A stretch of DNA of 54,859 nucleotides from IMG/VR virus record IMGVR_UViG_3300020347_000834, positions 1 through 54,859 of that record. One strand, written 5' to 3'. The DNA comes from a virus. The notes below the pieces were generated by a model, which saw only the letters and a program-made list of their open reading frames with translations, had not been told where the DNA came from and made no database searches. The stretch's first letter is position 1. Each line of letters begins with the position of its first letter. Of the stretch, positions 4,462 through 41,158 are shown one piece after another. The translations under genes were made by a program, and so were the position numbers.

Positions 4462-4477
4462 AAAAACAAAGTGATTT

Positions 4478-5743: not shown

Positions 5744-5746
5744 ATT

Positions 5747-6466
5747 ATGATTGATATCAATAGTGTTCCTAAATTTATTATAAATCTAGACAATAGACCA
5801 GATAGATGGAATCATATAGTTAAAGAGTTTGAATATATGGAATGGGAGTATCATAGATTTCCCGGAATTAATACTGGCAGTCATGTGGGCTGTGCAAAAA
5901 GTCACATGGCAGTAGCTTTACTGGGTATTGAAAAAAATCTTGACTACTTAATGGTTTGTGAAGACGATATATTTTTTCTACCTCACGCAAAACAACATTT
6001 AGAGGATTGTCTAAAAGCTTTAGATAAAGTTGAATGGGACATGTTTCATCTAGCTCCCAGTTTACATAGACCATTAAAGATGGATAGGAATGATTGTTTG
6101 ATTAGTTTGAGAGATGTGCCCCCTAAAGAAGAAAAACACACCAAAATATATGGGCTAAGTGCTGTTATATATAAAAAATCTCTTCTATCAGAAGTTTTAA
6201 AATGGCCTCTAGTGTTTAAAGAATGGAATAATGACGGAATGATGCAGGCTATAGATACATTTTTTAGTGATTATATTTATCCAAATTTCAATTGTTTTTG
6301 TGGTAATTTGCCAATCGTTACTCAAATAGCTGATCCGTCAACAATCAATCGTGGACAAGTTATAGATAATCACTACCTTATGACCTATAATTGGAAATTA
6401 TATGCTAATAAAAATCTCCCTCAAAGACTGATGGACTATGGATACTGCAAAAAAAATAGACAGTAA
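5747..6466 (+). CDS. GT25-type glycosyltransferase
   Basis: 239 residues with FIINLDNRPDRW at the start, GCAKSHMAV near 48-56 and CEDDIFF at 71-77. These are the hallmarks of GT25 (LPS beta-galactosyltransferase-like) enzymes: N-L-D-R-R-P-D-R, G-C-x-x-S-H and E-D-D. It is in the middle of a run of four sugar-transfer genes. Donor sugar unknown. Confidence 0.75.
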   Translation: MIDINSVPKFIINLDNRPDRWNHIVKEFEYMEWEYHRFPGINTGSHVGCAKSHMAVALLGIEKNLDYLMVCEDDIFFLPHAKQHLEDCLKALDKVEWDMFHLAPSLHRPLKMDRNDCLISLRDVPPKEEKHTKIYGLSAVIYKKSLLSEVLKWPLVFKEWNNDGMMQAIDTFFSDYIYPNFNCFCGNLPIVTQIADPSTINRGQVIDNHYLMTYNWKLYANKNLPQRLMDYGYCKKNRQ

Positions 6467-7391
6467 AGCTACTTTAGTTACAGCAATATATCACCATAGC
6501 CATAAAGAAATAATAGGTGGCAGAGGATGGTGTTTTGATTTTTACTCACCTCCTTTTTTAAATATACTGAAATTAGATTTACCTATAATAATATATACAC
6601 ACGAAAAAGTATTTGGTAAGTTGAGTAAGTTTATGCAAAAGCATAGGCATGATGATGACTATAAAATTATTATACAAGATTTGAATGACTTTAAATATGG
6701 CTCTAGGATATTAGATATAAAAAGAAAGTCTGGATGGTTTTTGAACGACAGGTTAAAATCAGATATTCCTTATACATACAACGATAGAAATCACACTCTT
6801 TGTTTGTCTAAGCTTTATTGGTTAAATCAGGCAGTTAATGATAATTATTATAATTCTAATAGTTTCTTTTGGATAGATGCAGGATTATTTCATCACGGTA
6901 TTTTTCCTGAAAAATTTGGAGGTAGAGAAAAATTTAGTAAGCAAGAAACAAAACCAGAACTTTATTACCCAGAGAATAAAGCTAGTATTTTTACTCCTAA
7001 TATGGGTAAGTTTCTATCTGATTATAAAGAAAAAATTTTAACAATAGTAAAAGAAGAAATGCCTATAAGACCTAGAATTAAAGAATTAATAGCACCTTCA
7101 GCAAATAGACATATAGATTATATAATAGGAGGTTTATTTGGCGGAGATCCTAAAACTATAAATTCTGTACATAGAGACTTTGATGAAGGTTTGCAGATTT
7201 GTTTGGATAATAATCTTGTCACTTTAGAAGAAGAGCTTTTGTCCTGTATTGCTTTAAAGAACCCCGATTTATATAACAAGTTTTATTTTTATCAATGGTG
7301 GCACGACATAAAAGAAGATCCTGCATACTATGATATAGGTGAAGATGAGAAATGTTTTTATAAACTTTTCAAGAACGAATTCCAAGCATAA
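6438..7391 (+). CDS. HtrL/YibB-family glycosyltransferase-like protein
   Basis: 317 residues, a single HtrL/YibB-type domain: ATLVTAIYHHSH near 11, LPIIIYTHEKVF near 48, FFWIDAGLF at 143-151 and IIGGLFGGDPK late in the protein. It is a relative of the N-terminal half of the gene at 2204. The ATG at 6438 overlaps the preceding gene by 29 bases. These proteins are associated with surface polysaccharide; the exact reaction is not established. Confidence 0.7.
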   Translation: MDTAKKIDSKATLVTAIYHHSHKEIIGGRGWCFDFYSPPFLNILKLDLPIIIYTHEKVFGKLSKFMQKHRHDDDYKIIIQDLNDFKYGSRILDIKRKSGWFLNDRLKSDIPYTYNDRNHTLCLSKLYWLNQAVNDNYYNSNSFFWIDAGLFHHGIFPEKFGGREKFSKQETKPELYYPENKASIFTPNMGKFLSDYKEKILTIVKEEMPIRPRIKELIAPSANRHIDYIIGGLFGGDPKTINSVHRDFDEGLQICLDNNLVTLEEELLSCIALKNPDLYNKFYFYQWWHDIKEDPAYYDIGEDEKCFYKLFKNEFQA

Positions 7392-13514: not shown

Positions 13515-14297
13515 TCATTGTGCTGCTTTGGCTGCTTTTATAGCTTCACTAAGCACTGTTTTAACTTTTTCTATCCACTCTACATAATCGCTTACTCTTG
13601 TGCTACAACCAATATCTCCATAATCAGAATCTCCCTTACCATCAGTGGCAGAAACATAAGAGTGTATACCTGCTAATTTTTTATCTATAAATAAACCTCC
13701 GCCGCTATCTCCCGGACATATTAAAAACTCTAATTCTGTTTTATCTCCTGAGTGTACAGAGTACTGTAATACATTCTTACTTACTCCGTCAATGATATTC
13801 GATCCAGCCCTTCTTTGATTATCAAAAGTACTCATAATCCATCCACTATTAAAATCTCCGTGATGACCGAACCCAGAAAGGCCGCAGACTTTATCAACTT
13901 CGTCTCTGTCTTTATACAATTCGGGATAAAAGTCTAATTTTATTGGTCTTTGCAATCTAGCTATAGCAATATCGTTTTTGCCCATAACACCGGACTTATA
14001 ATCTCCGTGAACAGCTACGATTGAGCAAGGATATGCTTCATTTTTATATATTACATGCTGAGTTATGGAATTGTGTACAACATGAGCAGCAGTTAGTATG
14101 TGATATTCATCTATTACTACGCAAGACCCCCTAAACTGCGCATTTAAATCATTATTCATGACTCCTAATATGGGTAAAACACACTCATATTTCTCTCCGT
14201 ACTCTAAATATTTAGCGTCAGAAACGGTAGGGTCAATAGTTCCGCAATAAGCCTGAATAGGCAAAAGCAATAGTATTGCTACAATAAGGTATTTCAT
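13515..14297 (-). CDS. Secreted trypsin-like serine protease
   Basis: 260 residues with signal peptide MKYLIVAILLLLPIQAYCG and a full S1 triad: H72 (LTAAHVV), D109 (KNDIAIARL), S198 (CPGDSGGG). The C-terminus is a short Ala/Lys helix. It should act in the periplasm or outside the cell. With the subtilase at 7764 the window encodes two unrelated serine proteases. It ends at 13515, back-to-back with the plus operon. Confidence 0.9.
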   Translation of the reverse strand: MKYLIVAILLLLPIQAYCGTIDPTVSDAKYLEYGEKYECVLPILGVMNNDLNAQFRGSCVVIDEYHILTAAHVVHNSITQHVIYKNEAYPCSIVAVHGDYKSGVMGKNDIAIARLQRPIKLDFYPELYKDRDEVDKVCGLSGFGHHGDFNSGWIMSTFDNQRRAGSNIIDGVSKNVLQYSVHSGDKTELEFLICPGDSGGGLFIDKKLAGIHSYVSATDGKGDSDYGDIGCSTRVSDYVEWIEKVKTVLSEAIKAAKAAQ

Positions 14298-14316
14298 CTC
14301 AATACCCCTTTCATTA

Positions 14317-14637
14317 TTATTTGAAGGGTTTATTTTTAACCTTATTATAATACACCTTAGAATCCTCTATAACATTAGTATTCCAGCTTTTATAATTCAT
14401 TAAATGGCCGAAAAGGAAATGACAGTATTTATCGCATAAAGTTATAAGATTATCAGGGTCTAGCTCTTTTGATGGGTCTAGATGAACCGGCACAATATGA
14501 TGCACTTCCGGCCTTTTACAAGACCCACATGCCTGACAACATGGTTGTTTTTCTATATGTTTCTTTCGTAATGCAGACCATCCCGGTGATCTGACGGCAT
14601 ATCTTACTTCTTTTCTGAATATAGATAATAAATTCAT
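14317..14637 (-). CDS. HNH endonuclease
   Basis: 106 residues: zinc pair CQAC (C34, C37), H46-H47 (EVHHIVPVHL), N63 (PDNLITLC) and C68/H73 region (CDKYCHFLFGH). This is a complete small HNH nuclease as found free-standing in phages, either homing or packaging-associated. It sits between a GT25 gene and the secreted protease. No intron is evident nearby, so the homing role is not supported directly. Confidence 0.85.
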   Translation of the reverse strand: MNLLSIFRKEVRYAVRSPGWSALRKKHIEKQPCCQACGSCKRPEVHHIVPVHLDPSKELDPDNLITLCDKYCHFLFGHLMNYKSWNTNVIEDSKVYYNKVKNKPFK

Positions 14638-14640
14638 AAT

Positions 14641-15324
14641 TTACTCCATTCTTTGACTGTGTGTTTTCCATATGTCATAAATATAGTTATGATATGATGT
14701 GTGTCTATTTTCTATCAAACTCATACCTTCATGTGTTTCGCATATATAGGGATCGAAAGTATATGATTTATTTTGTTGATTCAGGTTTTTCAAAATATTA
14801 TCAGCACAACACATAGGAAAACTTTTACAAATATTGTTGAAATATGCGTTTAAAATTTTATTGTAGTATTTAGAATTTAATCCATAAGCTATAGTACCGA
14901 GCATTCTGCCTGATGTAGATAGTTGAGAAGATATCGGTATCAATTTCTCATGAGGACTACCTCCAAAGTACAAAATATCCCAATCCTTTGGTAATTCAGA
15001 TAATCCGACCAACATCCTTTTATGGTAGTCTTGACTAAAAAAAGTATCATCTTCTATAATTAAGCAGTTATCGTACTGTTTGTCAACTGCGTCGTATACT
15101 GCTTTCATATGACTCAAAGAACATCCTAATACTCCTGCTTTTTTGAAATTGGTGTTGTTAAAATTTCCAGCAGGAGCATCGACATATATAAATTCAACTC
15201 TATCTTTTATTTTTAAATTTTCAAAATGTTTAGATATAGTTGTTTTTCTATCTGAGGATTGAGGTAAAGATATACAGTATATATGTTGAAAAAAATCAAA
15301 TGGATTTTCTGATAAATTTACCAT
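14641..15324 (-). CDS. GT25-type glycosyltransferase
   Basis: 227 residues. IYCISLPQSSDRKTTI at the start, GVLGCSLSHMKAV near 68-80 and LIIEDDTFF near 93-101 give the GT25 pattern. A second GT25 gene lies at 5747 on the other strand, clearly divergent. Isolated from the big glycan cassettes, between HNH and the actin-like gene, so it may modify a different target, such as a virion protein. Confidence 0.75.
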   Translation of the reverse strand: MVNLSENPFDFFQHIYCISLPQSSDRKTTISKHFENLKIKDRVEFIYVDAPAGNFNNTNFKKAGVLGCSLSHMKAVYDAVDKQYDNCLIIEDDTFFSQDYHKRMLVGLSELPKDWDILYFGGSPHEKLIPISSQLSTSGRMLGTIAYGLNSKYYNKILNAYFNNICKSFPMCCADNILKNLNQQNKSYTFDPYICETHEGMSLIENRHTSYHNYIYDIWKTHSQRME

Positions 15325-15334
15325 ACATAATTAC

Positions 15335-16336
15335 TTACTCTAGTATACTAGCAGCAATTAAACATCCCTTAGATACAGAATGAAGTGGATCGGCAGCGTG
15401 CTTGACTACTTCTATCTCTAAAGGGAAATCTGCTGCTAATAATTTCTCGTGTAGTTTCTCAATGTATCCATCTGCTTGTGATGTACCACCAGCAACTACA
15501 ACTTTAATAGCATTTTTAAATTTAGGTAACGATTTGTGTCCAGCTAAAGCTGAAGATAATTGTTTGGCTGTATATTCTACTAGTCTGTCGTAATAAGATG
15601 CTACTGCACTTAATACAGGACTATCGTTTGGTTCGCCTACTTTAAAACCACCACCTTCTTTCTCAACCTGAACAACACTATCTGGTTCTCCGGTAGCTAC
15701 GGCACTCATGCGGTCTACCCAATCACCTGACTTTGTTGTACTAAAGACTACGGTTGGTTCGCCGTTAAGCATAACACAAACATTGGTCATACCTGCTCCA
15801 CAACTAATACCAATTCCAGTATAATCGCTATCTTCTAATTCAGAATAACATAATGCTTCAGCTTCATTTACTGATCTAGCATCATATCCAACTTCTGATA
15901 AAATAGTCTTGACTACATCTTCATGGTAGCCTACGTCAAAATCATCATCTTCTTGATCCACTGGCTGCGCAGGAACACAGAAAACCAGCTTTTCGTTAGG
16001 TTCGCTTGCTTGACCTACAACTTCTTTTAGTATATAAGCCAATATTCTTTTCGCGTCTTTTTCTTTAACAGATACTACGCCTCTATACATAGGGCGGCGA
16101 GCAGTTTCATTTCTTTCTACTGCTTTTTCTATAGCGTCTTTTCCTAGTATTACAAAAGAACCATCTGTATCTTTAATAAATATTTTACCCTTCAGACCTT
16201 TTTCTACCATCTTTGTAGCAATAGGTGTGGTTGGTTTAATTACATAAAAGGCATCTCTAAAGTCATTAAACTCGATTTTATCTCCATTGTAAGAAGAAGC
16301 AACAATAAAACTTGTGCCGACATCAAGACCTATCAT
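15335..16336 (-). CDS. Actin-like (ParM/MreB-superfamily) ATPase
   Basis: 333 residues with the actin-fold nucleotide motifs in order: phosphate 1 IGLDVGTSFIVA at the very start, phosphate 2 GIGISCGAGMTNVCVML near 173-189, and the adenosine motif VVVAGGTSQADGYIEKL near 285-301. It may form filaments that position phage DNA or machinery, as ParM-like systems do for plasmids. The gene directly upstream (16338-16643) encodes a membrane-anchored protein one base away, a likely partner. Hsp70-like or cell-shape-like roles are alternatives. Confidence 0.75.
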   Translation of the reverse strand: MIGLDVGTSFIVASSYNGDKIEFNDFRDAFYVIKPTTPIATKMVEKGLKGKIFIKDTDGSFVILGKDAIEKAVERNETARRPMYRGVVSVKEKDAKRILAYILKEVVGQASEPNEKLVFCVPAQPVDQEDDDFDVGYHEDVVKTILSEVGYDARSVNEAEALCYSELEDSDYTGIGISCGAGMTNVCVMLNGEPTVVFSTTKSGDWVDRMSAVATGEPDSVVQVEKEGGGFKVGEPNDSPVLSAVASYYDRLVEYTAKQLSSALAGHKSLPKFKNAIKVVVAGGTSQADGYIEKLHEKLLAADFPLEIEVVKHAADPLHSVSKGCLIAASILE

Positions 16337-16337
16337 A

Positions 16338-16643
16338 TTATTTACCTTTCATGCTTTTAAGTTTGTTTACAGAACTAGAAATATCATTTTTGACACTTTT
16401 AGATTCTGTCATTTTGTCAAATTTTTTCTCCATACCACCTGTGTCTACTTTTAAAACCACTTTTGTATCATCAATTTCTATATTGCTATTTTGACCAGTA
16501 TTCTTTCTGCCTTGGCTTTTCAAAAAGCTAGAGGGTTTGGTTTCTGTATGACTATTGTTCATAAATCTACCAACATATAGACCAGCACTAAAAATTAATA
16601 TGGCTAAAGTTATTATCAGTAATATTTCTAAAGTGTTTGACAT
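16338..16643 (-). CDS. Single-pass membrane protein upstream of the actin-like gene
   Basis: 101 residues: one N-terminal transmembrane helix (about 5-26, ILLIITLAILIFSAGLYV) and a Lys/Ser-rich cytoplasmic tail with a likely amphipathic segment (KVVLKVDTGGMEKKFDKM). No domain recognised. One base separates it from the ATPase gene, so they are almost certainly co-translated; it could anchor filaments to the membrane. GGAGATATATA precedes the ATG. Confidence 0.6.
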   Translation of the reverse strand: MSNTLEILLIITLAILIFSAGLYVGRFMNNSHTETKPSSFLKSQGRKNTGQNSNIEIDDTKVVLKVDTGGMEKKFDKMTESKSVKNDISSSVNKLKSMKGK

Positions 16644-24959: not shown

Positions 24960-25167
24960 TTACATTCCTGTATTCCTCATCAGTCCACATTTTGTAGACC
25001 AAATAAAAATCTCTAGGTTTCCATTGTTTTACTTTTTCTTCACTAGAGACTTCTCTTGGTGGAATAAAGAGAAGCATTGCTAGTGCTAAAGTAAATAAAC
25101 CAACAACAATAATCCAACTTTTATCTTTAATTAGTCTCTCCACCTGCTCTTGTAAGTAAAGCAGCAA
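24949..25167 (-). CDS. Small membrane protein, 72 aa
   Basis: One transmembrane helix (about 18-36, WIIVVGLFTLALAMLLFI) and a polar C-terminal domain. The first ATG gives a 41-base overlap with the prepilin-like gene; a GTG a few codons later would shorten this. No domain known. Confidence 0.5.
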   Translation of the reverse strand: MLLYLQEQVERLIKDKSWIIVVGLFTLALAMLLFIPPREVSSEEKVKQWKPRDFYLVYKMWTDEEYRNVNGK

Positions 25168-26092
25168 ATACAGATAAGTCTACATTCTCATTAATGGTTC
25201 TAACAGAACCGTCAGCATAACAAGAGTTCATAATGCCGGGATGAAAACTAAATGCTTCACCATTATTAGTAACTCCAAAAGGAATATTACCAGCACAATT
25301 CTTACACTTATCTCCATTGCTATCCATACCATCTAACTTAAAAGGCCCAACACTATCTGCCCACCCAATACACTGATTAGTAGCACCAGTAGGAGTTGCT
25401 CCATTATTAGTATCAGCCTTATAAGTATCGGGTCTACTTCCACATTCTATAATTAATAAAGTATTAGAAAACCCATCTCTAATATGAGCATCTCTAGTTA
25501 CTGCGTCTTTAATTAAACAACCTTCATTCCTATCTTTTGCTGCATAAATATCAGAAGCAGCAGGAAAAACTTTACTTTTAATGCCTGTAAAGGTTTCGTA
25601 GTCTGTATATCCAAGATTATTGGGATTCATGGTAGTAGCAGCACTGTCGTCATCTCTAGTAGGGCCATCTACACTAGCATAACCACCAGCAGGAAGCATA
25701 GCAGAAGGACATTTAAATACAGATAAGTTTGCGCTTAATACTGTAGCATTTTGTTCCCACCAGTTTTTACTAAAATCATATTGATCTGCTATCGCTCTTT
25801 GCTCCATCTGTGATAACAATGAGGCTCTCCAACTATGTTCTGTACCTGAACGATTACCAGTGGAAGATTTACCAGCAGAATCAACTGTCCAAGAAGCGGC
25901 AGGAAAATATCTTTGTGAATCCATACTTGTATGTGCTGCTAAACCTTGTTGTTTTAGATTATTAGCACAAGACATTCTTCGTGCTGCTTCTCTTGCCGAC
26001 TGAACAGCAGGGAGTAATAATCCTACTAAAACACCAATGATTGCAATAACTACCAGTAATTCGATGAGAGTAAAACCTTTGCGATTTTTCAT
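25127..26092 (-). CDS. DUF1559 prepilin-like protein (type II/IV pseudopilin N-terminus)
   Basis: 321 residues. The N-terminus MKNRKGFTLIELLVVIAIIG is a perfect prepilin peptidase site (cleavage after G6, E at +5 of the mature protein) followed by the AVQSAREAARRMSCANNLKQ segment and the ending FHPGIMNSCYADGSVRTI, diagnostic of the DUF1559 family. That family is expanded almost exclusively in Planctomycetes and related phyla. The host peptidase could process it. It is the best host clue in the window and an unusual gene for a phage. Confidence 0.9.
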   Translation of the reverse strand: MKNRKGFTLIELLVVIAIIGVLVGLLLPAVQSAREAARRMSCANNLKQQGLAAHTSMDSQRYFPAASWTVDSAGKSSTGNRSGTEHSWRASLLSQMEQRAIADQYDFSKNWWEQNATVLSANLSVFKCPSAMLPAGGYASVDGPTRDDDSAATTMNPNNLGYTDYETFTGIKSKVFPAASDIYAAKDRNEGCLIKDAVTRDAHIRDGFSNTLLIIECGSRPDTYKADTNNGATPTGATNQCIGWADSVGPFKLDGMDSNGDKCKNCAGNIPFGVTNNGEAFSFHPGIMNSCYADGSVRTINENVDLSVFAALLTRAGGETN

Positions 26093-30835: not shown

Positions 30836-31537
30836 TCAACCTTCTAAAACATAAGACCAGTAACGGCTATCTTCTTTCTCTTGCAGGGCATCCCAATATA
30901 CACATCTAGCAATATAGGAAGGAACTTTTAGTTTGCCACAGTTAACACTCCAATGTTGCTCCATGCGCTTATATTTAGTAATACCCTGTTTACTCTTATT
31001 ATAGGTTAAATGCTCCATACCGTAAAGCCTTAATTGATGAACATCTCCACATAAAACTCTAGCAAAATTGGGATGAATCATCTCTAAGGCAAAACTAACT
31101 TTAGCCATTCCAAGTCCAACAATTTTATCAACAATAGAGTCTCTTTTTTTAACATGATACTTCTTAGTGGTAAAATAAAAGTCTTTAGGATTTTTCCAAA
31201 ACTGAGTAGCAAAGTCCCAGATATACTTTGTCCTGTTATTGTATAGACCTACCCCAGAATTTTTAAGTTTGTCTAATAGTGTTTCTTTGTTATCGACCCA
31301 CTCTTCGTAGTTCTTAATGGCATTGTAGCCACGACAATTCCCCTGCCAACTTGTATGAACAGAGCAATAAGCAAAGAGATAACGCCTAAAAATATCACCA
31401 TCATTCTGTGGTCGTACACTTTCCCAGTACTCCTTGTATGCTTGAATTTTTTCTGAGGGAAATGTCTTAAAGAAATCGTCTGCTTTAAAACGAGAGTATG
31501 TAGTTTGCTTTACTGGTTTAGTTTCCAAAGTTTCCAT
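30836..31537 (-). CDS. HhH-GPD-type DNA glycosylase-like protein
   Basis: ATG 31537, with TTTGGAGACTATC upstream, is used (the frame also offers a TTG 12 bases earlier); 233 residues. IVDKIVGLGMAKVSFALEM is a helix-hairpin-helix, followed by CGDVHQLRLYG where HhH-GPD enzymes have the catalytic D-x-H/V. It is a base-excision enzyme candidate (8-oxoguanine type). The protein at 51867 has the same order of elements. Confidence 0.6.
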   Translation of the reverse strand: METLETKPVKQTTYSRFKADDFFKTFPSEKIQAYKEYWESVRPQNDGDIFRRYLFAYCSVHTSWQGNCRGYNAIKNYEEWVDNKETLLDKLKNSGVGLYNNRTKYIWDFATQFWKNPKDFYFTTKKYHVKKRDSIVDKIVGLGMAKVSFALEMIHPNFARVLCGDVHQLRLYGMEHLTYNKSKQGITKYKRMEQHWSVNCGKLKVPSYIARCVYWDALQEKEDSRYWSYVLEG

Positions 31538-31573
31538 GATAGTCTCCAAAAGTTAAGTCCTGTGATACTAACG

Positions 31574-31616: not shown

Positions 31617-32288
31617 CTAAAAACTATAATTGCCTAATTCTATTATCTTTGCATCTCTATTTCTAATATACTCAATACTTTCATCGTCATAGTAATCTCT
31701 ATAAGATTTATTTTTAGTGGTTGCATTCATATGGGGCAATCTCCATTGTGTTATATGAGCATCGGGCAATATTTTTTTAACAATCTTTTTAAAGTCTTGT
31801 TCTATATTCTCTACTTTGCCAACAAAATCAACCATTAGTTTTCCATCTTTATCAAATATATAATTATGTGGAGACCACCGGTTACTTCTCATAATAAAAT
31901 TTTTAGGCGGTTGATTTAGTGCCATTTCTATGTTCTTGATATTAAAATCTTTTGGGTATTTATTTTTGCTCATAACCTGTCGATGATATTCATACGCAGA
32001 AACTTCCCTTTCCCAAGGATTTCTGATAAAAACAAATTTAAAATAATCATCCCACCTATACCCTCTTTCATCTAAATACTTTTTAATATCACTTGCAGAA
32101 GAGTGCGTCCACAAATTAGTATCTACTTTTGGATATTCTTCTTTCCAGTTTATATCTTTTTTTGTGTGCCACATCGGGTGAATATCCGTTTGGAAAATAG
32201 GATTGGTTTGCAGCAATTTTCTTATTGAAGTACCTGCACACTTTGGTAAATGAATCCATATAAATTTTTTTCTATGAGATATTATCAT
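31617..32288 (-). CDS. Carbohydrate sulfotransferase (sulfotransferase family 2 type)
   Basis: 223 residues. The 5'-phosphosulfate loop is WIHLPKCAGTSIRKLL near 11-26 and the 3'-phosphate segment is FVFIRNPWEREVSAYEYH near 85-102, both typical of PAPS-dependent carbohydrate sulfotransferases. It likely adds sulfate to a glycan made by the adjacent glycosyltransferases. PAPS would come from the host; no ATP sulfurylase or APS kinase gene is present here. Overlaps the upstream gene by 4 bases. Confidence 0.8.
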   Translation of the reverse strand: MIISHRKKFIWIHLPKCAGTSIRKLLQTNPIFQTDIHPMWHTKKDINWKEEYPKVDTNLWTHSSASDIKKYLDERGYRWDDYFKFVFIRNPWEREVSAYEYHRQVMSKNKYPKDFNIKNIEMALNQPPKNFIMRSNRWSPHNYIFDKDGKLMVDFVGKVENIEQDFKKIVKKILPDAHITQWRLPHMNATTKNKSYRDYYDDESIEYIRNRDAKIIELGNYSF

Positions 32289-33829
32289 TTTAATGTTTCT
32301 TTCTGGTTTTTTTGTAATGACTCTACTATATTTTTATTTTTATAGTGCTTACTCCTATAATCATCAGAATGTGGTATATGAAATATTGGAACAAAATTTT
32401 TATTGAATTTTATTGTTATTCTTTGAATCCCTATACCCTCTAGCCGTTTGTATAAATCGCAGTCATCGTATCCGTATCCATGTTGATTGCCCTGATATTT
32501 ATTAACTTGAATTAAATGTTTTTTATCAATAAAACAAAATCCGTTTAAGTTTTCTAAGAAACCAATTCCATTATCTTTGTTCTTTTCAGTCCAACAGCCA
32601 GTAATGAAACTTTTATCGCTATCAATAAGTAGCCAATCCGATAACAAATTATAAGGATTAATTATATAGTCTACATCAAGTTTTAAAATCATATCATTAG
32701 AAGTATTGTCTATAGCAATATTATAAGCCTTGGATAAATTAAAATATTCCTCACCCTTAACTTCTATGATTTTGATTCTTGGGTCTAAATTTTCAAAATA
32801 TTCCTGATCAAAATCATCTGATGAATAATCTACAATAACTATCTCTTTAATATCATTATGAATTAACCAAGAATTTATGGATGTTTTTAATATTTTATTT
32901 CTGTTTTTAGTAACTGTAACTACAGAAATATTTGTTTTTCTTTGCAAATTAGTTGGGGTTTTATCTGTTAATAATTCTAAATTAGTATGTCCAACTATAC
33001 TAGATATTTCACTAAATGTACTCCAATTTGTACCATAAATTTTTCTAGTTTTAGAAAGCAGAAACATATCTATTGTCGCTTCTTTTTGCAGTGGTTTATT
33101 GTCGTTTACTGTTAAAGAAGGGTCTGTAAAATTTTTATTACTAACAACAATGTTGTCGAATTTTTGTGTATAGTGTTTTTCGGTTGCTTCTGAGTCTGTA
33201 GATAAAAAAACTGGAGTATCAACATATGCTCTTATAATATTTTCAAAATATTCGTCTTTAGATTCTTTGTAGTGTTTAGACCAAGGGCCAGTAATAGCGT
33301 CACCCTTACGAATATGTACGCCTATATAATTTTTATCCACATCACATTGGCTTATGTATTTTTGTAATTCTGGTGATGGATGTATGTAATTTTTTAAGAA
33401 CATATATCTATGTTTAAGTTGAATATCAAATATCCAGTCTATGGATGCATAAGAGTTTAAACAAAAAGTATTAACAGATTTTAATAATCTTTTTATCTCT
33501 ATATCTGTAACATACTTCAAAGTATTTAGGTCTTGTGTAAAAAAGTGATCTAAATTCAGAAATTCTTTAGCAGCATCGTTGTATTGTGTATCGCTAATTA
33601 GAGATATGTTATTAGGTAGTTGATCCAAATCAAACAATTCACCAAAGGACTCATCAGAAAAACCCTCACTTTTAACCCAACATAAATATATTTGGTTATA
33701 TTGAAATTCTCTAGCAAAAGCATATACAGAATCTAGTAACAATAATCTATTGCCTAAGCCTTGATTTGGTTTTAGATAAATGCAACGGAAAGAGCTGGGT
33801 ATATGTTTAAAACTATGGGTAATAGTCAT
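32285..33829 (-). CDS. Two-domain glycosyltransferase: fucosyltransferase-like plus GT2
   Basis: 514 residues. Residues 1-about 290 resemble NodZ/FUT8-type fucosyltransferases: LKPNQGLGNRLLLLDSVYAF near 19-38, GVHIRKGDAITG in the middle and GTNWSTFSEIS as the late motif. Residues about 300-514 are a GT2 domain (NISVVTVTKNRNKILKTSI, IVIVDYSSDD, LKLDVDYIIN with D-x-D). A fused enzyme could add two successive sugars. No Shine-Dalgarno sequence is obvious, so the true start may be further upstream. Confidence 0.65.
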   Translation of the reverse strand: MTITHSFKHIPSSFRCIYLKPNQGLGNRLLLLDSVYAFAREFQYNQIYLCWVKSEGFSDESFGELFDLDQLPNNISLISDTQYNDAAKEFLNLDHFFTQDLNTLKYVTDIEIKRLLKSVNTFCLNSYASIDWIFDIQLKHRYMFLKNYIHPSPELQKYISQCDVDKNYIGVHIRKGDAITGPWSKHYKESKDEYFENIIRAYVDTPVFLSTDSEATEKHYTQKFDNIVVSNKNFTDPSLTVNDNKPLQKEATIDMFLLSKTRKIYGTNWSTFSEISSIVGHTNLELLTDKTPTNLQRKTNISVVTVTKNRNKILKTSINSWLIHNDIKEIVIVDYSSDDFDQEYFENLDPRIKIIEVKGEEYFNLSKAYNIAIDNTSNDMILKLDVDYIINPYNLLSDWLLIDSDKSFITGCWTEKNKDNGIGFLENLNGFCFIDKKHLIQVNKYQGNQHGYGYDDCDLYKRLEGIGIQRITIKFNKNFVPIFHIPHSDDYRSKHYKNKNIVESLQKNQKETLK

Positions 33830-33912
33830 TTGATATTTATGTCCTAATAATTCTAATTCATCAGAAAGGTTTTGTTCAACGATACCTCTTGTTTCTTAAT
33901 CGTAGTATGATC

Positions 33913-33942
33913 TATACTCTTTCCTCCTGATCGGCCTGTCAA
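33913..33942 (-). promoter_or_regulatory. Likely promoter with CGAT element, weak -10
   Basis: TTGACAGGCCGATC (-35 at 33937-33942 plus the shared element) is clear; the -10 is poor (AGTATA at 33913-33918, 18-base spacer). Lies upstream of the fucosyltransferase-like fusion. Confidence 0.5.
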
Positions 33943-33967
33943 GTCTGCTTTCTTTAATTAAACCTTC

Positions 33968-34699
33968 CTAGTCTTTTATAAAGTACCCTAGCTTGTTTTC
34001 TATCTCCCAATCAATGCCTTTATCTATTATTTGTTTTATCTCTGGTTCTATATGGTATGGTTTTTTCTCTATAGGCTCCATTATAGGCATCTTCATAGGA
34101 ATATGATATTTATTGCTCCATTCTGTTACGATACTCCAAGGGTCATTACAAAAGTCTTCATATTTTATTAACTCATAATTCTTTGCTATGTTTGGCATAG
34201 TATTATATAAATAATGAAGTTTTTTACTTCGCATTTTAAATATATTCTCATAACGAAGACCAGTTTCAAAATCTCTATCTCGCATTTTTTCTTCTCCATA
34301 TGTTTTGCTTTTTTTTTGGTGATCTATAGAGTACCATTCATTAGTCAAGAAACTTATTATGTCATGATTTTCTGGTGGAACATGATGTAAACTTCTACTT
34401 AGAGCAACAATCCAATCATAAGGATTTCTTACAATCCCTATGAATATAACATCCGATTCTATTTTAATATTTTCGTCATAAAATCCAAAAAAATGTTTTG
34501 CTCCAAAGTTATTTTTTCTGACAGTGTGTTTTTCTGTAGGAATTTTATAATCGTCAAAGTATGACGTATTTAAAACAGGAATGTGCATAAAAGCTGGTTG
34601 AGGACAAAATAAATGATAAGACTGTCCTGTTAGTAAAGTCTCTAAATAATTAGTTCCGCTATTACGTTCACCGTATATTACAAAAGATTTTTTTATCAC
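33968..34699 (-). CDS. Sulfotransferase-like protein
   Basis: 243 residues. GERNSGTNYLETLL near 10-23 matches the 5'-phosphosulfate-binding loop and FIGIVRNPYDWIVALSRS near 86-103 the 3'-phosphate segment (R-N-P-x-x-W). A sulfotransferase of the broad Sulfotransfer_1/3 type, different from the genes at 31617 and 36001. Eight bases separate it from the next gene upstream. Confidence 0.7.
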   Translation of the reverse strand: MIKKSFVIYGERNSGTNYLETLLTGQSYHLFCPQPAFMHIPVLNTSYFDDYKIPTEKHTVRKNNFGAKHFFGFYDENIKIESDVIFIGIVRNPYDWIVALSRSLHHVPPENHDIISFLTNEWYSIDHQKKSKTYGEEKMRDRDFETGLRYENIFKMRSKKLHYLYNTMPNIAKNYELIKYEDFCNDPWSIVTEWSNKYHIPMKMPIMEPIEKKPYHIEPEIKQIIDKGIDWEIENKLGYFIKD

Positions 34700-34707
34700 G
34701 ACACACC

Positions 34708-35988
34708 CTACTTATAATTATTAAATACAGCAAAAAATCTACTACTAGGATTTAAATACATTTTGTATCCATTTTCGTATAGCTTTTTATGAAATTGAAC
34801 ATGCTCACTACCAAGTTCTGCTCCATATCTTCCAGATAAAAAAGCCTCTGTTTTATAGATCGACAATCCACCAAAACAAGAATTAAAACGAACTGGATCG
34901 GAACCGATTAATGGATGCCAATTTGTAAACCACCGTCTTTGTTTATCATAATCTATATTAGGTTCCCAATCATTCAATCTGGAAGCGAACGAGTCGTAAT
35001 GGGCCAGCTGCCTTTGCCGATTAAAGCACAAAGAATATGAACCTATGCCTCCAGCATTATCTAAACTACGAAACCACCCAATACTATTATAAATACCCTC
35101 TACAGAAAATCCGAGATCAGCATCTAAGTCTAGCACCATAACATAATCATAGTCTGAGCAATTATCTTTAACCCATTCTATACAAATGTTTCGATATTCT
35201 GCTAAATGAGTTGTTCTGTTTAGAGACATATCTTGCAGGTATTCTCTTTTATTTGAAATACATTTTATTTGCATGTTGTCATATTTCTTTTCATTATCTA
35301 ATAATATATCTTTAGTGTTGTCCTCCGAGTCATTCTCGAAGATAAAAAGTTTTAACTCTTTACATTGAATACTTTGAATACTATTAATTGATTTTTCTAA
35401 TGCTTCGTCACAATTTCTAGCTAATCCAACAACACAAATACTACTATCTTTAGATATGTCTTGGCCTCTTTTTAGATATTTATCGTATTGTTTTGCAAAA
35501 CTTCTGTGTGAAGGAAGAAATTGATCAATAGTCTTTAATTCAAGATCGGCTAAATGTCTAATACGAAAATAATAACTTTTAAGTAAATCTACATAGCTAG
35601 TAATGCGTATTTTTTCAGCTTTAGACTTATCGTCGGAAAAGTAAAAATAACTATGATAAAACAATCTTTCTCTATCACTTATCCCATTCTTATCACAATA
35701 TTCTTTATAAAAGTTTTTAGTATGTGGATTTGATTGTAGATAAGTCTTGTGGTCGAAATCCTTGTCAACATCGTGATATAAATAGAAATTAATTATATCT
35801 TGAGATTCTTGAGGCAATACATGAGACATATAATGAAAAAACAACCTATGCTTATCGTCAATACTATTTTCTTTACAAAAGGGCTGATAAAAATCTTTTG
35901 CTTCAGGTTTCCATTTGAGATGTAGTGTTTCGTCAAAGTCTGGATCGACTATATTATTTTCGTAAAATTCTTGTATGGATAAGTTCAT
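34708..35988 (-). CDS. GT-A glycosyltransferase with two N-terminal repeat domains
   Basis: 426 residues. Residues about 4-58 and 64-115 are two copies of a repeat (pattern F-D-E-T-L/Y-L...P-x-x-K-x-F-Y-x-x-Y/F-C-x-x-N-x-I-x-D-x-x-R-L-F-x-H) also found in the protein at 37709. Residues about 180-426 are a glycosyltransferase: SSICVVGLARNCDEALEKSI, FIFENDSEDNT, VMVLDLDADLG (D-x-D) and FNSCFGGLSIYK, resembling GT62/GT69 mannosyltransferases. The repeat may bind the glycan acceptor. Confidence 0.7.
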   Translation of the reverse strand: MNLSIQEFYENNIVDPDFDETLHLKWKPEAKDFYQPFCKENSIDDKHRLFFHYMSHVLPQESQDIINFYLYHDVDKDFDHKTYLQSNPHTKNFYKEYCDKNGISDRERLFYHSYFYFSDDKSKAEKIRITSYVDLLKSYYFRIRHLADLELKTIDQFLPSHRSFAKQYDKYLKRGQDISKDSSICVVGLARNCDEALEKSINSIQSIQCKELKLFIFENDSEDNTKDILLDNEKKYDNMQIKCISNKREYLQDMSLNRTTHLAEYRNICIEWVKDNCSDYDYVMVLDLDADLGFSVEGIYNSIGWFRSLDNAGGIGSYSLCFNRQRQLAHYDSFASRLNDWEPNIDYDKQRRWFTNWHPLIGSDPVRFNSCFGGLSIYKTEAFLSGRYGAELGSEHVQFHKKLYENGYKMYLNPSSRFFAVFNNYK

Positions 35989-36000
35989 TAGTAATTACCT

Positions 36001-36816
36001 TCACATTAAATTTAAAGTTTTATAATATTCGTCAATGGTCTCATATTCTGATAGGAATTGTTCTTTATTAGAAAAAGCATCTACTTGTTTTATTATACGA
36101 GATTGTTTTTTTACTATGGGCTGTTTAAGAGGATGTTCGTGTCCTATCGCCTTACTAATTATTTCCATTCTTTCTTTTTCACTAGATTGAATTAATTTTT
36201 CATAATATATTATGTTGTATTTCATATCGTGAGACTTAATTAAATTCAATACGTCATCGTAAAAAGAAATGTAGTTTTCTGAAAAAGTTAAGAAGCCCTC
36301 TTTGTTCCAAGTAAATTCTTGATCATAAATTGGATCGTATTTTCTTATTCTAGTCCATTTTCGAGTTTTTTGTGATCTTTCTCGGCTTATAAAAACATCT
36401 AGTATGTTCTTTCTATAATTTACAATAAGCCTATCTGAAATGTCTATTATGTTTGAATACAAAGTAGGATGATCTAATGAAACCCAGTTGGTCGGGATCA
36501 CCTTATGAAAAAAATATTTATAATGTTCTTTTCTTAAAATTTCTATCACATCCAACAGCATTTGATAATTATAAGCAGGAAAATTACCCTCCTTTATAGG
36601 CGCATTTAAAAGTTTAGAAAAATAGCGTTTATATGCTTCGGTAAAAGGTATATCATATTTGAAAAAAGTATTAGTAACAACTCTTTTAAAGTGAGTCATA
36701 TTCCATGCTACAAAAAATTCCATAGCGTTAAATGTTATGTCTTCGACAGGTTTAATATGCTGATGGAAATATGTAGAACCTGTTCTAGCACGGCCTATGG
36801 TAGTAATTATTTTCAT
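36001..36816 (-). CDS. Sulfotransferase-like protein
   Basis: 271 residues. TIGRARTGSTYFHQHI near 6-21 is the phosphosulfate loop and RLIVNYRKNILDVFISRERS near 128-147 the 3'-phosphate segment. Third sulfotransferase-type gene within 5 kb; the three share only the PAPS motifs, so they probably act on different positions or sugars. Confidence 0.65.
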   Translation of the reverse strand: MKIITTIGRARTGSTYFHQHIKPVEDITFNAMEFFVAWNMTHFKRVVTNTFFKYDIPFTEAYKRYFSKLLNAPIKEGNFPAYNYQMLLDVIEILRKEHYKYFFHKVIPTNWVSLDHPTLYSNIIDISDRLIVNYRKNILDVFISRERSQKTRKWTRIRKYDPIYDQEFTWNKEGFLTFSENYISFYDDVLNLIKSHDMKYNIIYYEKLIQSSEKERMEIISKAIGHEHPLKQPIVKKQSRIIKQVDAFSNKEQFLSEYETIDEYYKTLNLM

Positions 36817-36827
36817 TAATTAAAACC

Positions 36828-37712
36828 TTATTGTTCTCGTGTTGTTGCTAAATTTCTTTTATTAAAATAATTTGAGATAGAGGTTTCGAGTTCTGGATGT
36901 AATATTTTATATAAACCATTATCGTCTATCTCTAAGTGTATTTTTGGATCGAAAGCATATTTATTTAATAAACATTCTCTATAGCTATATCCTCTATTTA
37001 ATACTTTACCATGATAAAAATGCTCTAGGCAACCAGAACAGTATCCTATATTATATTGCTTTGCGGGCATTTTCCTACAGTAATCAATCCACGAACGAAC
37101 TATATCGTCACTGTAATTTCCTATAAAAGACCTATTAAGTATGTCTAATGTTACGGACTGAATTTGTAGCAAATCGCTTGACCCTAATATATGCTTATCA
37201 TAAAAATAACCATTAGGCATGATTGAACGATTAATGGCCCAAGTTAAACCAAAAGCAGGATCGTAACAGTCTGACGCACCTGTATCTGTATAATCTCTTA
37301 ATGTCTTAGCATATCCACTGGTATTTAAACAGCTGTTTGCAGAAATAGTAGAATCATGATATTCATAGACAGTCTCAAAAGGTTGAACCATATCATACTG
37401 ATCTAATTTTAATTCCAGTTCTTGCATCATATCATAGTTTTGAAACGATATGTCGGTATCAACCCATAAAATCTTATCGTATTTTTCATCTAAGTTTTCT
37501 AATAATAGATTAAATGCTCTTTCTTTTTGCCATAGAATGTTATCGTGGCTAGCTATGATCTTTGTACTGTCATCTATAAAAAAATCCCTTTCTTTCAAAC
37601 ATATCTCTATGGTTTTTAAAGGGTGTCGAAACTTCTTTCTAAATTTTATATAATTATTTTTTCTTACTTGATTATTACCCCAATTAAAATAACAACATAT
37701 TGATGCTATCAT
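36828..37712 (-). CDS. GT-A-fold glycosyltransferase
   Basis: 294 residues. MIASICCYFNWGNNQVRK at the start, ILWQKERAFNLLLENL, and KILWVDTDISFQN with a D-x-D metal motif near 83-85. The C-terminal part has several Cys/His pairs (IGYCSGCLEHFYHG). Similar in plan to phage glycosyltransferases that act on nucleotide sugars. Overlaps the upstream gene by 4 bases. Confidence 0.65.
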   Translation of the reverse strand: MIASICCYFNWGNNQVRKNNYIKFRKKFRHPLKTIEICLKERDFFIDDSTKIIASHDNILWQKERAFNLLLENLDEKYDKILWVDTDISFQNYDMMQELELKLDQYDMVQPFETVYEYHDSTISANSCLNTSGYAKTLRDYTDTGASDCYDPAFGLTWAINRSIMPNGYFYDKHILGSSDLLQIQSVTLDILNRSFIGNYSDDIVRSWIDYCRKMPAKQYNIGYCSGCLEHFYHGKVLNRGYSYRECLLNKYAFDPKIHLEIDDNGLYKILHPELETSISNYFNKRNLATTREQ

Positions 37713-38191
37713 AATATCTCGTCCTCCAAATCAGAACATCCTTTAATCAGACTGGAAAAAATATTACCCTCGACTAAAAACTCAAGCATCTCTAAAAAAT
37801 CCATTCTTTGTTTATAATATTGACACAATCTTAATCCCCTATTCTTTTTAAATAATTTTAGAATTTTTATAAGAATTTGATTAACTATAGAGTTAGTGAG
37901 TTCGAGTACCTCAAGATTATTCCCTGCTGTATTGGTAAGTGATATTCCTTTAGCTGCTAATATAGCCTGAACTAATAAAGCATTATCGTCATTATGGTAC
38001 GTATAACCCTCTGCTCCAAACAAAGAATAGTGATAATAAAGTCTTTCTTTTTCCCCAATATTATGATTTTTACAATAAGGTTGATAGAAATCCGATGTTT
38101 CTGGAAACATCTTTGCATATAATACTTCACTAAAATTTTCATCCACTATATTAGACAGATAAAATTCATCTATTGAAATTATATCACTCAT
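37709..38191 (-). CDS. Repeat-domain protein related to the GT at 34708
   Basis: 160 residues. Residues about 4-60 (SIDEFYLSNIVDENFSEVLY, P-E-T-S-D-F-Y-Q-P-Y-C, ERLYYHYSLFG) match the N-terminal repeats of the glycosyltransferase at 34708. The rest is helical, without catalytic motifs. It may be a non-catalytic glycan-binding or scaffold subunit of the cassette. Confidence 0.55.
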   Translation of the reverse strand: MSDIISIDEFYLSNIVDENFSEVLYAKMFPETSDFYQPYCKNHNIGEKERLYYHYSLFGAEGYTYHNDDNALLVQAILAAKGISLTNTAGNNLEVLELTNSIVNQILIKILKLFKKNRGLRLCQYYKQRMDFLEMLEFLVEGNIFSSLIKGCSDLEDEIL

Positions 38192-38822
38192 AGTATTCTC
38201 CTAATATAAACTTAGTACCAGTAGTGATTGAGGTTTGCTTACTAACTTTATAATCCAATCTTTTTAAAACGCGAAAATCTAGACTCACCCTAGTTTTTCC
38301 TGTGCGATTTGGTAAATTGCCATGAGTGCATTTATTACCATTGAACATAAAAACTTCTCCCGGTTCCAATTCTATTTGTTTAAAATCTTTTAGTCCCGGT
38401 TCGCTTTCGGTGATAATTGTATTGCTTTCAAACATTCTAGTAATAGGTAATAAAAAATTTATTTCATCATCTGGATGATTAAACTCAGAATCCGTATGCC
38501 AAGCACCAACAGCTAAATTGTTTGGTAAATGAACTCTAAACGTAGGCCATTTTTGATAGATAATAGGTTCTTGGATTTCTGCTTGTACAAATTCTTTTAT
38601 GAAAGACTTATAAGTATGAAGAAAATCTTCCCATCCACTTCTCATCTTATCATAGAAAATTTGATGATATAAAGTATCAGAGTCTTTTGAGGGTTTGTCA
38701 AAAAAACTATATTCTTTTTTGTCTTTATTATGTAATAGTTCTAATTTGTGACCACCAAATAAATTTGATATATGTTTTACAAAAGGGTAATCCGATTGAT
38801 TATATTTAAATATTTTATACAC
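38184..38822 (-). CDS. 2OG-Fe(II) dioxygenase
   Basis: 212 residues with H109-x-D111 (VGAWHTDSEF), distal H167 (CTHGNLPN) and R178 (TRVSLDFR), a complete Fe(II)/2-oxoglutarate site. The ordering resembles StrG/phytanoyl-type small-molecule hydroxylases. In this cassette it may hydroxylate a sugar or a lipid carrier. Overlaps the ligase gene by 8 bases. Confidence 0.75.
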   Translation of the reverse strand: MYKIFKYNQSDYPFVKHISNLFGGHKLELLHNKDKKEYSFFDKPSKDSDTLYHQIFYDKMRSGWEDFLHTYKSFIKEFVQAEIQEPIIYQKWPTFRVHLPNNLAVGAWHTDSEFNHPDDEINFLLPITRMFESNTIITESEPGLKDFKQIELEPGEVFMFNGNKCTHGNLPNRTGKTRVSLDFRVLKRLDYKVSKQTSITTGTKFILGEYYE

Positions 38823-40134
38823 TTCTCATTTCACCATGCAATACTTTAAATGTTGGAAATCTAAGACTGATACCTCCCTCCTGATTCTTAGTCTCTTCAA
38901 AATATTGTACGGTTATAATTTTGCCTAAGATAGCATCAGGGTTTTTATAAAAGTCCTGTCTTTGCTCTATAGTAAACCCACTACCTACTCTGACAACATT
39001 ATCTTTGTGTTTAATGTAGACACAGGACAACATTTCCTCTTCACATTCTTTACCATCTAATGTTAAGGGAAACATTCCCATCTCTGTATCTACCACCTGA
39101 TATTCTGCATCATGGAATGTCTTTACTTTTAACAAATCTTTACTACGCTTACCTTTATATTGTACATTTTTACGAAGCATAACACCTTCCCAATTATCAT
39201 CATCTGCTTTAGATACCCACTTTTGGAAATGTTCGTCGTTATTTACTATCTCCATTTCTAATACAGATAGACAAGGGCATTCGTTATCCTCCATAGTAAA
39301 CAATAGTTCTTTATATCTTTGATAAAGATTGTCATCACTTTTCTTTGCTTTAAACTCGTCTTGCGTCATCATATCAAAGATTTTATAAGAAGGATTTTCA
39401 ATAGTATGTTCTTTCTTACGAAGTTGTTTCATAATACCTTGGAAGTCTTCGTTGCCATCTTCGTCAATTAAACAGAGTTCCCCGTCAAACACAACATCAG
39501 ATAAACCAAGACTTGCAATCCCATCGGCAACAACACCCAAGGTAGTAAATTCTTTGCCTGTTCGGGAGTAGAAAGTAGTATTGCCAAAACTATCGACAAT
39601 AGCCAAACATCTAACCCCATCAAGTTTACGAGATACAAACCACTCATCTTCCCACTCCACTAATTTAGGCTGATACTTTTCTGCAAGAGCGACACTAAAC
39701 TCTGGGATAAAATCAGGAATAACTTTATTAATAAGTTTAACACCAACCTTAGTCTTTAGGTCTTTGTCTAGGATACAATGTACAAGTTCTTCTTGTTCTG
39801 GATGCTTATTGATATAAGTATTAACAATCCTGATAGCATCATGTCCTGTATATCTTCTGTTGTTCAAATCGCTAAACAGTTGACACAAACCATATCCCGG
39901 TTCACAATCTCCGAAAGATAAGTCTGATCGCTTCTTAACTTGACTACTTGTCAAACCATACATGAGATAGTCATTATGTGCTAGGTTTAATACATTTCTA
40001 GCATGAAGTTGATCTCCATTATCCTCCTCTTTACCTGCCTTACAATACTTGGTAATAATTTCTTGCTTGGCAATAGTGCCGCTGTTGTTACGCAGTTCAT
40101 TAACCATAGCCATAACATATTCTGTGCTGTTCAT
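38815..40134 (-). CDS. ATP-dependent DNA ligase
   Basis: 439 residues. The adenylation motif K170-L-D-G (WFVSRKLDGVRC) is followed by YSRTGKEF (motif Ia/III area), VFDGELCLID (motif III), EGVMLRK (motif IV) and DLLKVKTFHDAEYQVVD (motif V), then an OB-like C-terminal domain. The order is that of T7/T4-like phage ligases and it should seal nicks in replication or repair. Driven by the promoter at 40172. Confidence 0.9.
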   Translation of the reverse strand: MNSTEYVMAMVNELRNNSGTIAKQEIITKYCKAGKEEDNGDQLHARNVLNLAHNDYLMYGLTSSQVKKRSDLSFGDCEPGYGLCQLFSDLNNRRYTGHDAIRIVNTYINKHPEQEELVHCILDKDLKTKVGVKLINKVIPDFIPEFSVALAEKYQPKLVEWEDEWFVSRKLDGVRCLAIVDSFGNTTFYSRTGKEFTTLGVVADGIASLGLSDVVFDGELCLIDEDGNEDFQGIMKQLRKKEHTIENPSYKIFDMMTQDEFKAKKSDDNLYQRYKELLFTMEDNECPCLSVLEMEIVNNDEHFQKWVSKADDDNWEGVMLRKNVQYKGKRSKDLLKVKTFHDAEYQVVDTEMGMFPLTLDGKECEEEMLSCVYIKHKDNVVRVGSGFTIEQRQDFYKNPDAILGKIITVQYFEETKNQEGGISLRFPTFKVLHGEMRSV

Positions 40135-40816: not shown

Positions 40817-40819
40817 AAG

Positions 40820-41158
40820 TGGAGGCGAGGGGAGTCGAACCCCTGTCCAGTGTAAATTCCATATAAACTTCTACATCGTTAGTCTGTTGTTATTAATACA
40901 TCAGACAAAACTATTTGTCTTTCCAACGTCAAAGTGTTTACACTTATCTCTATATTTAATTCAGGTATAAATTCCCTATCCGATTATCGGAGTCAGCCTA
41001 ATTGGGCGAGAAGGTTTAGGCAACCTCCCTCACTAAGCAGCGAGTGCTAATACAGAAGTATCGGCAACTAAAATGTGATCTATTTTTAAACTGGCCTTTA
41101 GATCAACCAGTCGATGCGATCTATACTTCTATTCACCTGTCGAAACCAGTACGCCCCC
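40820..41158 (-). ncRNA. ssrA: tmRNA
   Basis: A complete tmRNA on the minus strand. The ends form a tRNA-like domain: 5' GGGGGCG pairs with 3' CGCCTCC, T-arm GGGG-TTCGACT-CCCC, and CTGGTTTCGACAGG near the 5' end is the typical tmRNA start. The resume context TTTTAGTT is followed by codons GCC GAT ACT TCT GTA TTA GCA CTC GCT GCT TAG (41065 to 41033), giving the tag A-ADTSVLALAA with the usual LAA end recognised by ClpXP. CCA is not encoded. It rescues ribosomes stalled on broken mRNAs; a phage copy could serve when host RNA is degraded. Confidence 0.93.

Follow-up and report, generated by a model that had tools for sequence, protein, structure and literature searches.

Three predicted sulfotransferase families in a phage glycosyltransferase cassette at a candidate cargo hotspot

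Phages recode the surface sugars of their hosts by glucosylation and acetylation. Planctomycetes, for which to our knowledge few phages are known, are noted for their sulfated-polysaccharide metabolism. In Pontiella, a marine bacterium of the Planctomycetes-Verrucomicrobia-Chlamydiae (PVC) group, a sulfated exopolymer and a cluster of sulfotransferase and glycosyltransferase genes have been described (PMC7356697). Marine phages carry sulfotransferases as single genes whose function was called unclear (PMC10580990), and Stenotrophomonas phage DLP6 also carries a single one. The stretch analysed here, referred to as the window, is the complete IMG/VR virus record IMGVR_UViG_3300020347_000834 (54,859 bases). 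Its subject is a cassette of minus-strand genes, lying between a DNA ligase gene and an Ogg-like DNA glycosylase gene, in which three predicted sulfotransferase genes (ST1, ST2 and ST3) are interleaved with predicted glycosyltransferase genes. The original prediction, made from the window alone, regarded phage-encoded sulfation as rarely described. This needs narrowing: single phage sulfotransferases are known (those above and the family phrog_3347), and it is the multi-family cassette and its hotspot that appear to be undescribed. The combination of sulfotransferase families in one exchangeable cassette at a recurring hotspot was not found in the open-access papers searched, which omit most subscription journals.

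The three open reading frames (ORFs) were confirmed on the minus strand at the predicted positions:

31617..32288, minus strand: ST1, Sulfotransfer_2-type sulfotransferase, 223 amino acids (PF03567, E 1.7e-13; phrog_3347, E 2.1e-15)
33968..34699, minus strand: ST2, member of the phage sulfotransferase family defined here, 243 amino acids, GTG start (relatives, fold model, Foldseek)
36001..36816, minus strand: ST3, Stf0-like sulfotransferase, 271 amino acids (relatives match PF09037; the family profile finds 9vki and 1tex)

Their identification as sulfotransferases was upheld, and they fall into three different families, recognized by a profile for ST1, by relatives for ST3, and by relatives and a fold model for ST2. 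A Pfam search placed ST1 well above the Sulfotransfer_2 (PF03567) cut-off (51.7 bits versus 22), over positions 4–214 of the 252 in the profile; ST2 and ST3 were unmatched by themselves. Each protein had been credited with both motifs for binding 3′-phosphoadenosine 5′-phosphosulfate (PAPS). This holds fully for ST1 and ST3 and approximately for ST2, in which the canonical Ser of the 3′ site is replaced. The motifs of ST1 are PKCAGTS (5′-phosphosulfate-binding) and RNPWEREVS (3′-phosphate-binding), with the Arg and the Ser present (R89...S97). Its orthologues in two closely related phage records, G006 and G007, are 80% identical.

For ST2, 52 distinct phage homologues were collected. Family members are compact (about 216–243 amino acids), and the motifs in ST2 itself read GERNSGTN and RNPYDWIVA. 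R91 is present in 52 of the 52 homologues, and conservation of the 5′ motif, K68, H69, R91, R157 and K160 is complete or nearly so, while the homologues are 31–72% identical to ST2. The relatives match Sulfotransfer_1 and Sulfotransfer_3 weakly (4 of 17 match PF00685, the best at 2.4e-5), and were detected independently by a profile built from the relatives of ST1 (best E 2.4e-9). An AlphaFold2 model made from 49 sequences reached a predicted local distance difference test score (pLDDT) of 92.3; the model obtained from 5 close sequences had a pLDDT of only 49.9 and was discarded as poor. When the good model was compared with the PDB in Foldseek, the top 28 matches were all sulfotransferases, led by 3rnl (E 9.3e-6) and followed by SULT2A1 and StaL; in the Foldseek viral library, most of the named matches near the top were also sulfotransferases. 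A search of the PDB with the ST2 profile put CmeR above the sulfotransferases, which was judged a chance match. On the model, ST2 can confidently be predicted to have a sulfotransferase fold. No relative of ST2 was found in 50,697 GenBank phage records, and the family would be a new one of compact predicted sulfotransferases.

ST3 carries the motifs ARTGST, E33-F-F and RKNILDVFIS. Among its relatives in the same phage lineage, four of eight match Stf0 (PF09037; best 4.8e-7). The family profile, run against the PDB, found NodH (9vki, E 2.8e-4) first and Stf0 (1tex, weakly) second, and the alignment with these two matches the P-loop, the E-F-F stretch and the Arg-Ser-Trp stretch. R11, G13, E33, F35, R135 and S144 are invariant in the family alignment, R135 and S144 in 11 of 11 sequences. 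The Glu of E-F-F in Stf0 is the proposed catalytic base. Since the window protein is itself unmatched by PF09037, ST3 is called Stf0-like rather than a member of Stf0.

In a control with reversed proteins, the ST1 and ST3 profiles matched nothing and the ST2 profile had a single match, at E 1.8e-4; matches below 1e-5 therefore exceed the background. Single-sequence PDB searches with ST1, ST2 and ST3 returned chance matches only. Profile-profile comparison of the three families was weak (ST2 with ST1, probability 42%, E 2.6e-4; the other pairs lower), and we therefore do not claim that any of these proteins arose from another inside the cassette. Where gene pairs exist, the ratio of non-synonymous to synonymous substitution (dN/dS) was 0.52 for ST1 and 0.19 for ST2 (versus the distant relative L004), which points to purifying selection on both. 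The genes compared ranged from 0.16 to 0.52 and are thus constrained, ST1 least.

The genes around the three sulfotransferases, and the segment of the cassette that is replaced in relatives, are the following:

30836..31549, minus strand: Ogg-like DNA glycosylase, downstream hotspot border (PF22175 Ogg-HhH, E 4e-9)
32285..33829, minus strand: glycosyltransferase with a C-terminal GT2-family domain (PF00535, E 2.2e-10)
34708..35988, minus strand: CAP59-like glycosyltransferase with N-terminal repeats (PF11735, 29.0 bits, cut-off 28.8)
36828..37712, minus strand: putative GT-A type glycosyltransferase (WVDTD motif only)
37709..38191, minus strand: short hybrid ORF at the block border (blastp; the nucleotide match to G006 and G007 ends at 38029)
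38184..38822, minus strand: 2-oxoglutarate/Fe(II) oxygenase of a kind found in carbohydrate clusters (TIGR04324 SpoChoClust_2, E 1.2e-7; PhyH, E 0.0012)
38815..40134, minus strand: ATP-dependent DNA ligase, upstream hotspot border (PF01068, E 6e-18)
33932..38028 (4,097 bp): block replaced as a unit in G006 and G007, holding ST2, the CAP59-like glycosyltransferase, ST3 and the putative glycosyltransferase (blastn borders)

In the order of minus-strand transcription, the genes are those for the ligase, the oxygenase, the hybrid ORF, the putative glycosyltransferase, ST3, the CAP59-like glycosyltransferase, ST2, the GT2-type glycosyltransferase, ST1 and the Ogg-like glycosylase. Most neighbours overlap by 4–8 bp (the ligase and oxygenase genes by 8 bp) or stand less than 15 bp apart, as in an operon; wider gaps precede the GT2 gene (138 bp) and the Ogg-like gene (67 bp). 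This order recurs at 99.99% identity in G001 (IMGVR_UViG_3300020352_000789; 71,928 bp), a longer record of the same phage that spans the whole window, and so is not the product of one faulty assembly. The interleaving with three glycosyltransferase genes was borne out by profiles for two of them, the third (36828..37712) being assigned from its motif; neither this protein nor its three homologues matched any profile. The GT2 protein has an N-terminal region with an HIRKGD motif (dN/dS of the gene, 0.30). Reading that half as a fucosyltransferase was unsupported, with NodZ matched at E 0.14 only and no PDB relative of that part. The CAP59-like gene adjoins ST2 in the distant relatives L004 and L005 too. 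The TIGR04324 match of the oxygenase stands below the curated cut-off, and the G006 copy is 94% identical. Outside the cassette, a GlcNAc-type glycosyltransferase (PF11397, E 2.9e-78) is encoded at window positions 4478–5743 on the plus strand, within a second, plus-strand gene group (2204–7391). Just upstream of the ligase gene lies a transfer-messenger RNA (tmRNA) gene (40817–41158, minus strand; Rfam RF00023, 114 bits; ARAGORN tag ADTSVLALAA); such genes are rare on phages.

Comparison by blastn with G006 (157,014 bp) and G007 showed nucleotide similarity of 86–94% on both flanks of the block, ending at window positions 33931 and 38029 in both relatives. In place of the block, these have an unrelated 2.1 kb segment that encodes a 551-amino-acid glycosyltransferase and another Sulfotransfer_2 protein (PF03567, E 7.9e-13; dN/dS of its gene, 0.16). 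G007 has one more Sulfotransfer_2 gene beside ST1, which brings its sulfotransferases to three. The first ∼54 codons of the ORF at 37709–38191 match the N-terminus of the relatives' 551-amino-acid glycosyltransferase and the remainder does not; from this alignment, the ORF is read as a joint left by block exchange. Three further observations concern these records. An actin-like protein (window 15335–16336, minus strand; Pfam Volactin, E 6e-66) is 100% identical over 333 amino acids in G006. It lies in a minus-strand region (13515–16643) in which several proteins are 100% identical to those of G006 and their neighbours 69–95%, reflecting unusually strong conservation or recent exchange. In G006, positions 83438–85090 on the plus strand (L268 2939–4591) encode a 550-amino-acid protein with a sulfotransferase-like P-loop at its start (FSNPRHGTTFLID), beside a repeat-domain protein; the protein starting FSNPRHGTTFLID had no Pfam sulfotransferase match.

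The interval between the ligase and Ogg-like genes was followed more widely with the Ogg-like gene as bait. A relative of this gene is encoded in 252 IMG/VR stretches, of which 80 were listed and used; it had no match in the 50,697 GenBank phage records, and hence no isolate relative. Over 137 loci the interval showed 72 distinct arrangements and sizes from 37 bp to 7,265 bp, the latter, in the window, being the largest seen. A ligase tree (a quick tree) was made for 59 loci that each have a different ligase protein. Of these, 58 were obtained with the Ogg bait, and the other, L005, was first found through ST2; further loci found with ST2 as bait were excluded to prevent counting bias. Sulfotransferases of the three families occupied the interval in 26 of these loci and other ORFs in 19, while 14 were empty; a lone ST2-family gene was a frequent content. 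Since further sulfotransferase types in the same interval of relatives (e.g. PF00685, E 1.1e-24, in L061) were left uncounted, these counts are low. On the tree, presence of a sulfotransferase had to change at least 12 times (9 of these changes were forced by well-supported branches), and 18 state changes were needed in all. Shuffled labels gave more changes than the real ones, indicating that the content of the interval is partly inherited and partly exchanged. These patterns suggest that the interval is a cargo hotspot in which sulfotransferase genes have been repeatedly gained, lost and swapped.

The marine planctomycete host that had been proposed found support, at the level of a planctomycete-type host, in two genes:

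G001 59085–61445 (L267 186–2546), minus strand: complete PSCyt1-PSCyt2-PSD1 (DUF1549/DUF1553) protein (PSCyt2, E 4.2e-80; PSD1, E 4.7e-71)
25127–26092, minus strand: DUF1559-type prepilin (GFTLIE leader, C-terminal H-X9-DG motif)

The first lies at and beyond the right end of the window, and its architecture is typical of Planctomycetota and their relatives. The best full-length match of the pilin was in a Gimesia metagenome-assembled genome (34%), and the G006 copy is 78% identical. Judged from these genes, the phage, one of a large, uncultivated lineage, probably infects Planctomycetota. PAPS-synthesis genes, which might have accompanied the cassette, were not seen: none of 17 phage records encoded an adenosine 5′-phosphosulfate (APS) kinase, and a phage-borne PAPS supply was rejected on this basis. 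The kinase was present in five of six planctomycete genomes. In planctomycete G182 (contig C47), an ST2 homologue lies beside Sulfotransfer_2, Sulfotransfer_3, GT2 and MBOAT genes and an ABC exporter. In planctomycete G180, a protein matched by the ST3 profile, and assigned by Pfam to Sulfotransfer_3, is encoded in a cluster that includes Wzy and Wzt.

Taken together, these data make it likely that the cassette serves to sulfate a surface or virion glycan with PAPS from the host, in a phage probably of Planctomycetota, and that sulfotransferase genes are exchanged at the hotspot. The three PAPS-dependent enzymes (Sulfotransfer_2-type, SULT-fold phage family and Stf0-like) would be expressed in one operon with the glycosyltransferases and the oxygenase, and would take PAPS made by the host. 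Sulfate would be placed on hydroxyl groups of a polysaccharide of the cell surface or virion, with each enzyme probably acting at a sugar position of its own, and the glycosyltransferases would extend or branch the same glycan. Gain, loss and swapping of sulfotransferases would be expected if the glycan pattern were under changing selection, for masking receptors from competing phages or for matching the coat of a strain. We infer catalytic activity, host, operon expression and benefit to the phage from the genes, and the glycan substrate from the genes that lie alongside, both in the phage and in those planctomycete polysaccharide clusters that have homologues. A broader version is tentative and rather doubtful: the interval might be a locus devoted to sulfation and quick to switch, in a widespread lineage whose phages each carry a changeable sulfotransferase set drawn from at least three families. 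Stand-alone ST2 would then rewrite the sulfation of polysaccharide already present on the host, and the changing pattern would serve in phage-phage or phage-host competition.

Several findings weigh against sulfation of a glycan by this cassette. Searched by themselves, ST2 and ST3 match no sulfotransferase family in Pfam, PHROGs or NCBIfam, and ST3 has no Stf0 match at E 1. The Foldseek TM-score of ST2 is modest (0.52 at best). Its canonical 3′-site Ser is Ala, and the homologues have A in 33 cases, S in 10 and G in 9. In many phages that have ST2, the ligase-Ogg interval lacks a glycosyltransferase gene, so that ST2 taken by itself is less firmly tied to glycans. The host is deduced from two planctomycete-type genes. 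Finally, the ST2 and ST3 profiles each found matches in only 3 of 294 planctomycete genomes, some of them weak; recent acquisition from hosts is therefore not supported.

The first and third of these points bear on the possibility that sulfate transfer has been lost while the fold is retained in ST2, and perhaps in ST3. Such a protein would bind PAP (3′-phosphoadenosine 5′-phosphate) or another nucleotide and might serve, for instance, as a regulator or an anti-defence sponge. The 3′-site Ser is absent from 42 of the 52 ST2 homologues, and ST2 by itself matches no curated sulfotransferase profile; however, Ser is replaced by small residues (A, G), pointing to a pocket that still works, and the 5′ motif and the five residues K68, H69, R91, R157 and K160 have persisted, nearly invariant to invariant, across 31–72% identity. 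We consider loss of activity unlikely. A very unlikely alternative is that the sulfotransferases are real and act on phage DNA, giving sulfated hypermodified bases, with the ligase and the Ogg-like protein as part of the same theme. The hotspot is indeed flanked by two DNA-metabolism genes, lone ST2 is often found in an interval without glycosyltransferases, and in PMC10829341 Iyer et al. 2013 is the reference given for sulfotransferases that take part in modifying phage bases. But the ligase and Ogg genes persist where the interval is empty, and the planctomycete homologues sit in polysaccharide clusters. Thymidylate-synthase-family enzymes, moreover, are the usual source of hydroxymethylated pyrimidines, and none was found in 14 related phage records, which may be incomplete (controls were detected); a search for Tet/JBP base oxidases found none in 13 records but, with no working positive control, says nothing either way. 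Neutral capture of host polysaccharide genes at a tolerant spot, with no benefit to the phage, would fit the fast turnover of content, the many relatives with an empty interval and the hybrid ORF left by block exchange, but has very little probability given dN/dS values of 0.16–0.52, recurrence of the same kind of gene in 26 of 59 loci and tight operon packing.

If glycan sulfation by the cassette is accepted, a hotspot exchanging sulfotransferases in probable planctomycete phages would allow tests of whether phages drive change in sulfated surface glycans. Among described systems, the phage 'galactose-3-O-sulfotransferase' family phrog_3347 (PF03567) aligns with ST1 along its full length (E 2.1e-15); that family is a stand-alone phage gene, whereas ST1 shares a glycosyltransferase cassette with sulfotransferases of two other families. 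The ST2 model shares its fold and motif order with SULT-type sulfotransferases (bacterial 3rnl, human SULT2A1, StaL, Teg12; Sulfotransfer_1 fold), from which it differs in having no single-sequence match, in the Ser-to-Ala change at the 3′ site and in its shortness. The ST3 family shares the P-loop, E-F-F and R...S...W signature with Stf0 and the lipopolysaccharide (LPS) sulfotransferase NodH (PF09037; 1tex, 9vki), although the window protein by itself falls short of the Pfam model. The cassette as a whole may recall phage O-antigen seroconversion-type cassettes, in that phage enzymes would recode a surface glycan, here by sulfation rather than glucosylation or acetylation; unlike those, it sits in the ligase-Ogg hotspot, of a phage not shown to be temperate. 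The multi-sulfotransferase polysaccharide clusters of PVC bacteria (G182, contig C47; Pontiella, PMC7356697) are chromosomal and come with export or polymerase genes, whereas the phage cassette has neither; in both, sulfotransferases are grouped with GT2-type glycosyltransferases.

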